A stretch of DNA of 64,000 nt from an uncultured Bacteroidia bacterium. GTDB lineage: Bacteria; Bacteroidota; Bacteroidia; Bacteroidales; UBA932. Below, in pieces: positions 2,960 through 28,675 of the stretch. The position numbers were made by a program, and so were the translations under genes. The notes under the pieces are model-generated. The model saw only the letters and a list, made by a program, of their open reading frames with translations, did not search any database and had not been told where the DNA came from. Position 1 is the first letter of the stretch, and each line of letters starts with the position of its first letter. The stretch spans positions 228,272-292,271 of the forward strand of contig CADAND010000001.1 of the NCBI GenBank assembly GCA_902789245.1, read 5' to 3'.

Positions 2960-2989
2960 TTGAATAATAAAAAATTAACTCTATTTTTG
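2960..2989 (+). promoter_or_regulatory. Bacteroidetes-type promoter for the HU gene
   Basis: A TTG box at 2960-2962 is followed after 19 bp by TATTTTTG at 2982-2989. This matches the Bacteroidetes sigma pattern of a TTTG element and TAnnTTTG. The predicted transcript starts about 45 nt before the HU start codon. Confidence 0.7.
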
Positions 2990-3042
2990 CACTCCCAAAA
3001 ATACGTTGAGGTTAGTTACTAAATAATTTAATATTCAAGACA

Positions 3043-3339
3043 ATGACTAAAGCAGAAATCGTGAATGAAGTGGCCAAGGCCACCGGCATCGAGAAGGTGA
3101 CCGTCCAGACTGTCGTCGAGGCCACCATGGAGAGTATCAAGGCCTCTCTTATCAAGGACAACAACGTGTACCTGCGTGGATTCGGCTCCTTCATCAACAA
3201 GCAGCGCGCCCAGAAGGCCGCCCGCAATATCACCCGCCAGACCACGATGACGATTCCGGCTCACTGCATTCCCGCCTTCAAGCCGGCCAAGTCCTTCGCC
3301 GCTGCGGTCAAGGAGAACGTCAAACCCAAATCCAAATAA
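3043..3339 (+). CDS. hup: HU/IHF-family DNA-binding protein
   Basis: A 98-residue nucleoid protein of the HU/IHF family. It starts MTKAEIVNEVAKATG, the dimerisation helices follow, and GFGSF at about 46-50 is the family signature. The beta-arm region lies near residues 52-75. The family conserves a proline at the arm tip; here the arm reads TMTIPAHCIPAFKPAK. The C-terminus is lysine-rich. It bends DNA and helps compact the chromosome. It is followed after 6 bp by a tiny ribosomal-type ORF and then a terminator, so the two probably share one transcript. Confidence 0.93.
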   Translation: MTKAEIVNEVAKATGIEKVTVQTVVEATMESIKASLIKDNNVYLRGFGSFINKQRAQKAARNITRQTTMTIPAHCIPAFKPAKSFAAAVKENVKPKSK

Positions 3340-5070: not shown

Positions 5071-5075
5071 ATATC

Positions 5076-5102
5076 GTCATGCCCGACCTGATCGGGCATC
5101 TC
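5076..5102. repeat. GTCAT-type hairpin repeat
   Basis: ATGCCCGA (5079-5086), loop CCTGA, then TCGGGCAT (5092-5099), flanked by GTC and CTC. The copy in rfbD at 21041-21068 differs by a paired C-to-G and G-to-C change that keeps the stem intact. It covers the end and 3' flank of the S4-domain gene, just after that gene's stop codon. Confidence 0.75.
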
Positions 5103-9240: not shown

Positions 9241-9294
9241 TTCCTCCCAGCCCCTCCCTGCCCTCCCGGCTTGCCTTCCCCCGCGGGCGGCCAG

Positions 9295-9331
9295 AAATTA
9301 TTTTTCGTGCAGTTGCTCGAAAAACCAATTT
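9295..9331. repeat. AAATTATTTTTCG palindrome, intergenic copy
   Basis: A 37-bp imperfect palindrome (TTTTTCG ... CGAAAAA arms). The reverse complement of 21773-21809 inside rfbD matches it at all but one position. Similarity continues to about 9383 (AACGCC...GCACG...CAAGCCT), so the whole element is about 80 bp. Confidence 0.8.
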
Positions 9332-9390
9332 CTGCTCCGCCCTCCGCAACGCCAACGCACGGCAAGCCTCGTTAGCAACAGTCAGTTAAC

Positions 9391-9428
9391 GTCATTCGCC
9401 GGCTCCGACCGGCGAATCTCGTTTTTTT
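9391..9428 (+). terminator. GTCAT-type hairpin acting as terminator
   Basis: ATTCGCCGG (9394-9402), loop CTCCGA, then CCGGCGAAT (9409-9417), CTCG and seven Ts. It closes the barrel-lipoprotein operon. The GTCAT...ATCTC flanks place it in the same repeat family as 5076 and 21041. Confidence 0.75.
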
Positions 9429-20791: not shown

Positions 20792-21886
20792 TTAGAGCAG
20801 AGCGGAGAGGCAGCGGCGGAGAGAGTCGGTCCAGTAGGGGATCGAGAGGCCGAAGGTCTCCTTGATCTTCGTCTTGTCGAGGACCGAGTAGGCCGGGCGG
20901 CGCACCGGGCTGGGGAACTCGGAGGAGTGGCACGGCTGGATGTCGCAGGCGGCATTCCCAGCCATCTTCGCGATCACCTTCGTGAAATCATACCAGCTGC
21001 AAACCCCCTCATTACTAAAATGATAGATGCCGCTTGTCCCGTCATCCCCGACCTGATCGGGGATCTCATGCCTGACGGACAATTCCGCGCGCGGGCGTTG
21101 TGGAGCCGAACCCTGGACCCCAGGCGCGCAGGCCTTCAGAATGGTGACGATAGCGTTTGCCAAATCGCCGGCGTAAGTCGGCGTGCCGGTCTGGTCGAAG
21201 ACCACCTTCAACTGCGGACGCGTGGCCGTGAGATTCAACATCGTCCGGACAAAATTCTTCCCGAACTCACTGTACAGCCACGCCGTCCGGATGATCACAT
21301 GCTTGCAGCCCGAAGCAATAATCTTCTGCTCGCCGTGCAACTTCGTCAGCCCGTAAACCCCGGTCGGCGTCCCGGTCTGATCCTCACGGCAAGGTGTATT
21401 GTACGGCTCCGTGCCGAACACATAATCCGTACTGATATGCACCAGCAGCCCGCCGACCTCCTTCATGGACTTCGCCAAATTCTCAGGCGCGGTGGCATTC
21501 AACCTCTCCACCAGATCAAACCTCTCCGGATCCTCCGCCCCATCCACATTCGTCCAGGCCGCACAATTGACGATTGCACCAATCTGACGCTCCCGCACGA
21601 TCGCCCGGATCGCCTCCAAATCGGTGATATCCAGGCGGGTAGTCGAAGTGTCAACCCCCTCGCCGCCGAGCTTCTTCAGCATCGCAATAGACTCCTCGGA
21701 GGCCTCGACAACATCTGTGAAGACGAACGACAGGCTTGCTGCGTCGTGCGAGGGCGTTGTGTGCGAAGTGGCAAATTGGTTTTTCGAGCTACTGCACGAA
21801 AAATAATTTGCCGCTGAGCAGTTGGAAGCAGCAAGCCGGAGTTCGTTTCCTAATTGTCCGTTACCACCAGTGACCAGAATGTTCAT
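20792..21886 (-). CDS. rfbD: dTDP-4-dehydrorhamnose reductase carrying two in-frame palindrome inserts
   Basis: A 364-residue RmlD reductase of dTDP-L-rhamnose synthesis: nucleotide-binding GGNGQLGNELR, YxxxK as VYGLTKLHGE, and STDYVFG. Typical homologues are near 290-300 residues. The excess corresponds to two foreign-looking stretches at about 20-54 (CSAANYFSCSSSKNQF...) and 252-286 (CAPGVQGSAPQRPR...PDQVGDDG), both encoded by repeated palindromes. The second lies before the substrate-domain motif GIYHFSNEGVCSWYDF. The frame is intact, so the protein may still work with surface loops. It is the third gene of rfbACD (ATGA overlap with rfbC). Confidence 0.9.
   Translation of the reverse strand: MNILVTGGNGQLGNELRLAASNCSAANYFSCSSSKNQFATSHTTPSHDAASLSFVFTDVVEASEESIAMLKKLGGEGVDTSTTRLDITDLEAIRAIVRERQIGAIVNCAAWTNVDGAEDPERFDLVERLNATAPENLAKSMKEVGGLLVHISTDYVFGTEPYNTPCREDQTGTPTGVYGLTKLHGEQKIIASGCKHVIIRTAWLYSEFGKNFVRTMLNLTATRPQLKVVFDQTGTPTYAGDLANAIVTILKACAPGVQGSAPQRPRAELSVRHEIPDQVGDDGTSGIYHFSNEGVCSWYDFTKVIAKMAGNAACDIQPCHSSEFPSPVRRPAYSVLDKTKIKETFGLSIPYWTDSLRRCLSALL
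21041..21129. repeat. compound palindrome inside rfbD
   Basis: A GTCAT-type hairpin (ATCCCCGA/TCGGGGAT, 21044-21064) is followed by an APGVQGS-encoding element (21088-21129). Reverse-complemented, that element shares GCGCGCCTGGGGTCCAGG and GGCTCCACAACGCCC with ugd 27864-27950. The copy lacks the middle present in ugd. Confidence 0.8.
21773..21809. repeat. AAATTGGTTTTTCG palindrome, copy inside rfbD
   Basis: The inverted copy of 9295-9331, 36 of 37 positions identical. It is read through in the rfbD frame as NYFSCSSSKNQF. Confidence 0.85.
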
Positions 21887-24549: not shown

Positions 24550-24623
24550 GTCATCCTGAGGGTTTTTTCTGTCATCCTGAGGCTTGCCGAAGGATCTAGA
24601 TTCTTCGCTGCGCTCAGAATGAC
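24550..24623. repeat. GTCATCCTGAG inverted repeat
   Basis: GTCATCCTGAG (24571-24581) and CTCAGAATGAC (24613-24623) are inverted around an AAGGATCTAGATTCTT core. An extra half-copy GTCATCCTGAGGG lies at 24550. Elements with this sequence are scattered in many bacterial genomes. The gap between it and upxY holds the capsule promoter and leader. Confidence 0.75.
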
Positions 24624-24676
24624 AAGTTTCTGTCCTACCGCGAGGGAAGGCCGGCGATGCGAGTTTGTGATTTATT

Positions 24677-26610: not shown

Positions 26611-27332
26611 AATGCCTGATCCTTGCCGCGGGCTATGCCACCCGCCTCTATCCACTGACGGAGAATTTTCCGAAACCCCTGCTGGAAGTGGCCGGGAGGC
26701 CCATCCTGGACCATCTGATCGATGACCTGGAGCACTGCGGCGGAGTGGATGAGTATATCGTCGTCACGAACCACAAGTTCGCCCCGATCTTTGAGTCCTG
26801 GGCGGCTTCGCACCGCGCCGTCACCATTGTTGACGACGGCACTTCGACCAACGAGACGCGCCTCGGCGCCGTGCGCGACATCCAGTTCGCGATCGAGCAG
26901 TGCAGCATCGACGACGACCTGCTAGTGATGGCCGGCGACAATCTGCTGGATTTCAGTCTGGGCGCTTTTGCCAGCTATGCGCAGCAGAAGCAGGCCTCCT
27001 GCGTGATGTGCTACCACGAGCCGGACGAGGTGCGGCTGCGCCGCAGCGGCGTTGCCGAACTGGATGCGGACTACCGCTTGCTGTCGCTGGCCGAAAAGCC
27101 GGCGGAGCCCAAAAGCCACTGGTGCGTGCCGGCGTTCTACTGCTTCACAGCGCAGGACGTGAAACTCGTCGGGAAGGCCATCGAGGAGGGCTGCAGCACG
27201 GACGCCCCGGGCAGTTTCATCGCCTGGCTTTGCCGGCAGACGGAGATGTTTGCCTGGCCGATGCCCGGCCGCCGATACGACATCGGCAACCTGGAAAGTT
27301 ACAACGAAGTTAAACAGATATTCGAAAAATGA
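26607..27332 (+). CDS. sugar-1-phosphate nucleotidyltransferase
   Basis: A 241-residue NTP-transferase. It has the pyrophosphorylase motif [13 protein letters not shown] with PKPLL, a metal-binding [10 protein letters not shown], and [12 protein letters not shown]. It is short, lacking the C-terminal hexapeptide domain. Coupled by ATGA overlaps to the kinase before and the dehydrogenase after it, it most likely activates the kinase product to an NDP-sugar. The nucleotide and sugar cannot be read from the sequence. Confidence 0.82.
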
Positions 27333-28675
27333 AGATTGCAGTTGCAGGAACCGGATATGTCGGCCTGAGCATCGCTACGCTGCTCTCGCAGCGCCACGAG
27401 GTGGTGGCCGTGGACGTGATTCCGGAGAAAGTGGAGAAAATCAATCAGAGAATCTCGCCCATCCAGGACGAGTACATCGAGAAATACCTGGCCGAGAAGG
27501 AGCTCAAGCTGACGGCCACGCTGGACGGCAGGGCCGCCTATCGCGATGCCGATTTCGTGGTGATCGCGGCGCCGACCAACTACGACCCCAAGAAGAATTT
27601 CTTCGACACCTCGCACGTGGAGGAGGTGATCTCCCTGGTGCTGGAGGTCAATCCGGATGCGGTGATGGTGATCAAATCGACTGTGCCGGTGGGCTATACG
27701 AAGTCGGTGCGGGAGAAGTTCAGCTACCGCGAGCGTCTTGCGGACGGTTCTTTCCAGGTGGTCGTTCCGAAGATCATTTTTGCGCCGGAGTTCCTGCGGG
27801 AGAGCAAGGCGCTGTACGATAACCTGTATCCTTCGCGGATTATTGTTGGGTACGATAAGGCCAGCGCGCCTGGGGTCCAGGGTTCGCCGGACCAGAAAAA
27901 ATGGTCCGCCGAATCCCTGGACGCCCCGGCTCCACAACGCCCGCGCACGCTAAGAGAGGCGGCGGAATGCTTTGCCGCACTGCTGAAGGAGGCGGCGCTG
28001 AACGATCCGCAGGTGTTGCTGATGGGGACGACGGAGGCGGAGGCGGTGAAGCTATTCGCCAATACCTACCTGGCGCTGCGGGTCAGTTTCTTCAATGAGC
28101 TGGACACCTACGCCGAGATGAAGGGCCTCGACACGCAGTCGATCATCAACGGCGTGTGCCTGGATCCGCGCATCGGCGCGCACTATAATAATCCCTCTTT
28201 CGGCTATGGGGGCTACTGCCTGCCGAAGGATACCAAGCAGCTGCTCGCGAACTTCAACGACGTCCCGGAGAACCTCATCAAGGCCATCGTGGACAGCAAC
28301 CGTACCCGCAAGGACTACATTGCGGACCGCGTGCTGGAGCGCGCCGGATACTACAGCGCCAACAGTGCCTACGACACGGCGAAGGAGCATGAGGTCGTGG
28401 TGGGCGTGTACCGCCTCACGATGAAGTCGAATTCCGACAATTTCCGCCAGTCCGCCATCCAGGGCATCATGAAGCGCATCAAGGCCAAGGGGGCGACCGT
28501 GATCGTTTACGAACCCACGCTCGAGGACGGCACGACCTTCTTCGGCTCCCGCGTGGTCAACGACCTCGCCGCCTTCAAAGCCCAGTCCGCCGCCATCATC
28601 GCCAACCGCTATGACCCGGCGCTGGACGATGTGGCGGAGAAGGTTTATACGAGGGATATTTTTAAGAGAGACTAG
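27329..28675 (+). CDS. ugd: UDP-glucose 6-dehydrogenase with an in-frame palindrome insert
   Basis: A 448-residue UDP-glucose/UDP-hexose dehydrogenase oxidising C6 to give UDP-glucuronate. N-terminal NAD fold ([12 protein letters not shown]), [14 protein letters not shown], and the catalytic cysteine C297 in [15 protein letters not shown]. Residues about 177-209 ([16 protein letters not shown]...[10 protein letters not shown]) interrupt the end of the NAD domain after PSRIIVGYD, where relatives continue directly, and they are encoded by a long palindrome also found in rfbD. The frame is open. It overlaps the nucleotidyltransferase by 4 bp. Confidence 0.9.
27864..27950. repeat. APGVQGS-encoding palindrome inside ugd
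   Basis: The arms run from GCGCCTGGGGTCCAGG at 27866 through CCGGACC to GGTCCG and CCTGGACGCCCC near 27928, with an A-rich loop. A GGCTCCACAACGCCCGCGC tail follows. The arms and tail match rfbD 21088-21129 (inverted), which lacks the middle. Both copies are read in the same frame. Confidence 0.82.

Follow-up and report, generated by a model that had tools for sequence, protein, structure and literature searches.

Protein-coding palindromes have been described from Rickettsia, Wolbachia and scattered REP-rich genomes. The Rickettsia palindromic elements (RPEs) are palindromic repeats of ~100–150 nt that lie in frame within conserved genes (PMC2229807, available part), and in-frame inserts of REPs have been described in many bacteria in the available part of PMC3733652, which also names Bacteroidetes among the phyla with CGTC repeats and gives, in Xanthomonas recB, a precedent for a single site that holds different REPs. 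In open-access literature listings we found no report of in-frame palindromes in Bacteroidales. An earlier note on this DNA likened the elements to RPEs and named no described Bacteroidales equivalent, with the caution that this was no proof of absence; in-frame REPs as such are already described in many bacteria (PMC3733652, available part).

The DNA analysed here, referred to as the window, covers 64 kb of contig C1. The draft genome to which it belongs totals 2.28 Mb in 28 contigs and is 95% complete, and its closest named RfbD relatives point to the Bacteroidales. The observation of in-frame palindromes in ugd and rfbD is real and is larger than first stated, and this genome holds at least four palindrome families, of which the one found in ugd, family B, is one. 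Our main reading, which we hold with a probability of about 0.77, is that the ugd insert is a copy of a non-autonomous, REP-like mobile hairpin, with putative movement as single-stranded DNA, handling by RAYT-like proteins, and survival of those copies that a protein loop tolerates.

In-frame palindromes in ugd and rfbD

The earlier note had placed an in-frame palindrome in ugd at 27864–27950 and had reported that the peptide APGVQGS...APQRPR lies between conserved blocks of the enzyme. We confirmed this with a small correction to its extent (Table 1): the family B copy starts on a codon boundary and reads as residues 178–207 (ASAPGVQG...APQRPRT), which are inserted between Pfam domains PF03721 and PF00984 and, on alignment, between consecutive residues ~201/202 of PDB chain 3phl_A. 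Together with short flanks the copy has a predicted fold of −62.7 kcal/mol, with 0/200 shuffles equally stable. The 18- and 19-nt end motifs of B, allowing up to three mismatches, each occur exactly twice in the 64-kb window, while shuffling gives an expectation of 0.03 and 0.02, respectively.

The second occurrence, in rfbD, had been put at 21088–21129 and described as a shortened copy in the same frame, with the same peptide ends and the middle missing. This also proved correct, although the copy is slightly longer (Table 1); it is read as APGVQGS-APQRPR in the frame used in ugd, it lacks the inner hairpin of the palindrome, and its folding is unremarkable (z 0.65 versus shuffles). Deletion of the inner hairpin, as in this copy, may be a route of decay. 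The description of rfbD as having one repeat copy was right for family B but overlooked two further palindromes in the same gene, a CGTC-tagged REP directly adjoining the short B copy and a family A palindrome near the 5' end.

Mapping onto structures had been proposed for both proteins. In an AlphaFold2 model of RfbD both insert regions lie between a helix and a strand, with pLDDT (averaged by tens) of 38–59 and 49–75, while most other blocks score 86–98; residues 151–180 are also low (63–72) though they carry no insert. The model thus supports the RfbD insert regions being predicted loops. For Ugd, the alignment to 3phl_A and the Pfam domain boundary point to a surface loop by sequence only, and the original claim of surface-loop positions therefore stands on a model for RfbD and on alignment for Ugd. 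Here, a surviving repeat is predicted to be translated as a flexible, near-neutral linker.

Table 1. Genes and palindromic elements located in the window (coordinates are those of the window).
Feature	Position	Strand	Evidence and remarks
CGTC-type REP, intergenic	5075..5100	+	Hairpin scan
Family A copy, intergenic	9269..9361	-	Genome match C1:237540-237632, 98%
CGTC-type REP, stem CGCCGG; uninterrupted form of the hairpins that surround several A copies	9390..9418	+	Hairpin scan
rfbD (rmlD), dTDP-4-dehydrorhamnose reductase, with three palindromes	20792..21886	-	TIGR01214 6.5e-80; 360 protein residues on 283 model positions
CGTC-tagged REP in rfbD, 8-bp stem, 5-nt loop, gene reads HEIPDQVGDDG	21040..21065	+	Hairpin scan; fits the CGTC definition of PMC3733652 (available part)
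Family B copy without inner hairpin, in the ugd frame	21086..21134	-	BLASTN pieces and translation; with the adjoining CGTC REP near residue 208 of PDB 1vl0_A
Family A palindrome with 10-bp outer arms GGCTTGCTGC / GCAGCAAGCC, near the rfbD 5' end, read as NYFSCSSSKNQF	21733..21837	-	Genome match C1:250016-250080; fold z -5.05; relic at the same place in G058
ugd, UDP-glucose 6-dehydrogenase with insert	27329..28675	+	NCBIfam PRK15057 1.1e-159, below its own cut-off; TIGR03026 above its cut-off; Pfam domains either side of the insert
Family B palindrome, full copy, 90 nt = 30 codons	27860..27949	+	BLASTN 78-88% to three other long genome copies; fold z -3.72; missing from 28 other same-genus Ugd loci; no outer inverted flanks

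Copies in the genome and in related genomes

Using a 111-nt query around the ugd copy we obtained 26 matches in the genome at E up to 10. Four of these are long (ugd, a glycosyltransferase, a pyrK-like gene and dapF), two are pieces of the rfbD copy, and the remaining 20 span 14–27 nt, 14 of them being the 20-nt tail region. All five family B copies found in the genome lie inside genes and are open, and four share the APGVQ...APQR frame, with the dapF copy read in another; on average 5.5 of six frames are open per copy, compared with 4.07 in shuffles (four copies). Palindromic inserts in conserved genes superficially resemble bypass elements or introns, and the insert could in principle be skipped through mRNA splicing, ribosome bypass or protein cleavage. 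However, the five B copies and the named A copies described below are all in frame without stops, which would not be needed if they were skipped, and we regard this explanation as extremely unlikely.

The earlier note had expected the inserts to be absent from close homologues, and neither the alignments nor the count of frames refuted it. In a survey by protein of 60 other genomes of the genus, many of them incomplete, B was absent from Ugd at all 28 other same-genus loci and from PyrK in all 15 other matching genomes, and it was found in none of the 29 aligned relatives for RfbD (48 matched), DapF (37 matched) or the glycosyltransferase (49 matched). We also searched 150 other genomes at the DNA level, with scoring restricted to the best candidates from an initial pass, and obtained a long B match in genomes G150, G097 and G119, in each case in frame and at the same glycosyltransferase site, which indicates that the insertion was inherited there.

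Family A is ~90 nt long and has a 20-nt tail, CTCCACAACGCCAACGCACG, in common with B. It gave 39 matches in the genome of the window at E up to 10, fragments included, and by locus, using a rough gene caller, 19 of 21 were intergenic, with one in rfbD and one in a doubtful ORF (L046). An RNase P RNA (RF00010, L044:1001-1344) lies ~150 nt from an intergenic A copy. Family A was matched in seven of eight chosen relatives, where, with loci read individually, 11 of 30 loci are within genes and in frame: trpC (twice, antisense), dapF, ugd, atpG (twice), metH (twice), an MBOAT gene, an ABC-F gene and prmC. These host genes were named by profile search (eight proteins and ugd), the second trpC and second metH being named by likeness to the first, and in the MBOAT gene only the part beyond the A insert is matched by the profile. 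The 43 A-type copies have on average 4.84 open frames, compared with 3.63 in shuffles, and only one of them is open in all six, so the idea that the repeat is built to be harmless was dropped. In atpG of G097 (L099), another insert interrupts an A copy, and a second recurrent-looking repeat, VILSESEGS, is present in that protein.

In a 464-kb sample we counted 41 CGTC-like hairpins whose stem is 5 bp or longer, compared with 5–11 in each of five shuffles; the sample consisted of 20 stretches and the window, and was 88% coding by our own simple gene caller. Seventeen have stems of at least 7 bp, ten being intergenic and seven in called genes. Of these seven, five fall far from the protein ends (in MutY, ArgC, RfbD, an EamA transporter and a tricorn-like S41 protein), and two are ahead of the matched domain near the N-terminus and may be untranslated. 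The window also contains an intergenic pair of CGTC-like repeats in opposite orientation (24570–24624).

Which repeat the Ugd, RfbD and DapF loops hold varies between species. Following IIVGYD, Ugd has B in the genome of the window, family A in G040, CGTC-type hairpin pairs in G004, G003 and G054, and recurrent repeats of other types in G042, G033, G027 and G045. With a strict test that calls for a perfect arm of at least 8 bp, five of the 28 other loci pass (G004, G040, G003, G027 and G054; shuffle P 0–0.07), with P 0.07 at L105 and P 0.09 at the site in ugd of the window; three more (G042, G033 and G045) fail the test and show a recurrent CGTC-like or other repeat by likeness. For the Ugd loci called by likeness (L107, L108 and L119), the comparison was with recurrent repeats that are in part seen in the genome of the window. 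The length of the Ugd loop also varies where there is no clear palindrome (11–37 residues), which indicates that this loop is simply permissive. DapF carries B in the genome of the window. In G058 it has A together with a CGTC REP, in G054 a CGTC-type hairpin, and in G028 a CGTC-like repeat with a TGTC tag and a 5-bp stem that is read as CHSERSEES. This same peptide is present at the RfbD B site in G119 and in a rumen MAG (L136), and in rfbD of G027 (L216) the position that B occupies in the window is taken by a series of repeated half units (SCHPECP... SCHPERSEGS). Between G097 and G150, which are 89–96% identical in the compared pieces, the ugd loop has an A core in G097 and none in G150, and the N-terminal loop of rfbD has a TGTC-tagged repeat in G150 only.

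These data also bear on whether the repeats are kept since the added peptide is useful, through loop diversification or regulation, and not since it is harmless. B is kept in frame in the glycosyltransferase of four species, and eight of ten gene insertions of A share one sense frame (hand count), both of which could suggest usefulness; however, unrelated palindromes occupy the same loops across species, sisters manage without the insert, the B copy in rfbD has lost its middle, and selection against harmful frames alone can explain the frame bias. We therefore consider this quite unlikely, and favour a mobile hairpin, because the repeat recurs in the genome, is missing from the examined relatives, is palindromic, in frame and in loops, and because other palindrome families do likewise in other genes and species, with the same loops receiving different repeats. 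Most insertions would be lost, and the survivors in genes would be those that kept the frame and landed in loops.

Hairpin arms and a candidate mover

We aligned 42 copies of family A, omitting L004 as it is a B copy. The inner helix is paired in 97.7% of cells and the outer helix, which is formed by host flanks, in 79.9%, with changes on both sides in 8/8 pairs of the outer helix, while shifting the partners of the whole structure by 1–3 columns reduces pairing to 39–61%. Maintenance of the stems by compensating changes, together with the stable folds, would be consistent with the hairpin acting as an RNA or DNA structure within genes, for instance in transcript stability or attenuation, with the peptide as a by-product. 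Nevertheless, the copies lie mid-gene in many unrelated genes, stems can also be maintained by template switching between the arms or by the mobility machinery, and Rfam gave no family at gathering score in the window and nothing for the elements, so that we judge such a role to be very unlikely and retain the mobile hairpin as the preferred reading.

Among 43 copies (42 A and one B, some of them orthologues), 35 have flanks just outside the element that form an inverted repeat of 7 nt or more, compared with 2.7% of shuffled flanks. When flanks were crossed between copies, 342 of 1806 pairings also reached 7 nt, because two arm sequences recur in many A copies. One of these arm types, CGCCGGT, is the stem of a CGTC REP, and such hairpins also occur uninterrupted (in the window at 9390–9418, and beside L036 and L042), which places A, where it has these arms, within the loop of another repeat. 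Inside genes, arms are specific to the gene concerned. Arms are present in two of the five B copies of this genome (glycosyltransferase, 11 nt; dapF, 10 nt) and in two of the three glycosyltransferase copies of relatives, while the longest flank matches in ugd, pyrK and rfbD are 3, 4 and 5 nt (P 0.2–0.97), and arms as a general rule for B were dropped.

Arms that match the host flank in many copies would also be expected if arms and hairpins arose by local template switching at chance quasi-palindromes, with no mobile elements involved. This is contradicted for the core by an inner sequence and a 20-nt tail that are common to unrelated genes and genomes, and as an account of the whole it is highly improbable, although the outer arms may still have such an origin. 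For the mobile hairpin, the arms of many A and two B copies suggest that a few host bases at the hairpin foot could be copied by snap-back during or after insertion, which is the least certain step of the mechanism. We were led to this by two sites examined by eye, since both show one native and one extra arm: in ugd of G040 the right arm, GCAGATGCCGC, stands where relatives have their own codons and the left arm is extra, and the glycosyltransferase B copy has a like pattern. A rule that the native arm is always on the tail side, drawn by eye from G040 ugd, the glycosyltransferase and trpC, was dropped, as the antisense A in G097 ugd is opposite and rfbD is ambiguous; selection on the constrained side explains the tail-side pattern as well. 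More speculative, and on balance rather unlikely, is the fuller proposal that A and at least some B copies insert by snap-back, in which the folded single strand would prime on adjacent host DNA and write ~7–12 host bases inverted on the other side, giving each insertion a host-specific outer stem, and that protein loops are being rewritten genus-wide by such palindromes.

The elements would move as folded single-stranded DNA, and the HUH (Y1) RAYT-like transposases of these genomes would most likely handle them. The genome of the window has two Y1 transposase-like genes, with Pfam scores of 22.5 and 21.7 bits against a cut-off of 23; scores with the RAYT model NF047646 are significant (37.6–42.6) but below its cut-off of 80, and Pfam at E 1e-5 returned nothing for three RAYT candidates. 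Their HUH and tyrosine motifs (NHIH/NHVH and YVIKNP/YIHRNP) are by eye like those of subclasses 2.4 and 2.6 in the available part of PMC6006769. Among 12 RAYT loci scanned, the A tail and core were present at two (contig C22 of this genome, and G080), a tail-like match alone at two, and nothing at eight. On C22 the gene is broken into two ORFs, and in G080 its orthologue is intact (337 aa); each is ~170 bp from an A copy, and the two represent one orthologous locus; at both (L364 on C22 and L365 on G080 C26) the A copy by the RAYT-like gene is preceded by a tandem array of short CTTGCCATCCCCCGG-like units. Near a RAYT-like gene on contig C4 there are three copies of a further palindrome, family C (L369:1271-1352, 2337-2426 and 2960-3045). 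Two of them directly flank the intact gene and one is more distant; a sequence partly like family C was also seen in the sample near 11232 of L381, between genes. By eye, neither GTAG nor GTGG was seen at the hairpin foot in the 42-copy A alignment.

Comparison with described elements

Several palindrome families are at work together in a genus with at least 151 genomes, and the same loops are empty, filled or differently filled between relatives. Such a series would allow tests of the way in which mobile DNA turns into protein, of which loops tolerate it and of how REP-like hairpins insert. For annotation, it is a caution that a peptide which keeps recurring, like CHSERSEES, can be a translated repeat.

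Two of the element families match no described type that we could find. The analogy with RPEs made in the earlier note stands for behaviour, as the elements are in-frame palindromic insertions in conserved genes, but not for membership of family B by tag: neither A nor B has the CGTC tag of RPE-4 and RPE-6 (PMC3733652, available part), their ends reading CGTGCG...GGAG, a comparison that covered the tag of these two RPE families. The elements also differ from RPEs in belonging to another host phylum and in the reuse of the same loops by several families. The CGTC REPs of Di Nocera 2013 (PMC3733652, available part), for which intragenic cases were likewise reported, are defined by CGTC, a stem of 8–9 bp starting AT and a loop of 4–5 nt; the CGTC REP in rfbD falls within this definition and, with the mutY, argC and EamA elements, has CGTC or a one-base variant, an AT-based 8-bp stem and a 5-nt loop. 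In contrast, A and B lie outside it; they are longer, share the 20-nt tail and, for most copies of A, have an outer stem matching the flanking host DNA.

Compared with TnpAREP/RAYT subclass 2.6 of Bacteroidetes (PMC6006769, available part), what is alike is the presence of RAYT-like genes close to atypical hairpins with further copies in the genome, although the genes here are likened by motif and their profile scores are below curated cut-offs; in-frame REPs in the tnpAREP gene are described in that part for subclass 2.4, not 2.6. Bacterial MITEs with coding potential (RU-1/ERIC, Correia; PMC2229807, available part) are likewise non-autonomous repeats fused in frame, but most A copies here have inverted flanks, and direct target duplications were checked by eye only. 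Overall, the finding is best filed with the RPE and intragenic-REP kind.
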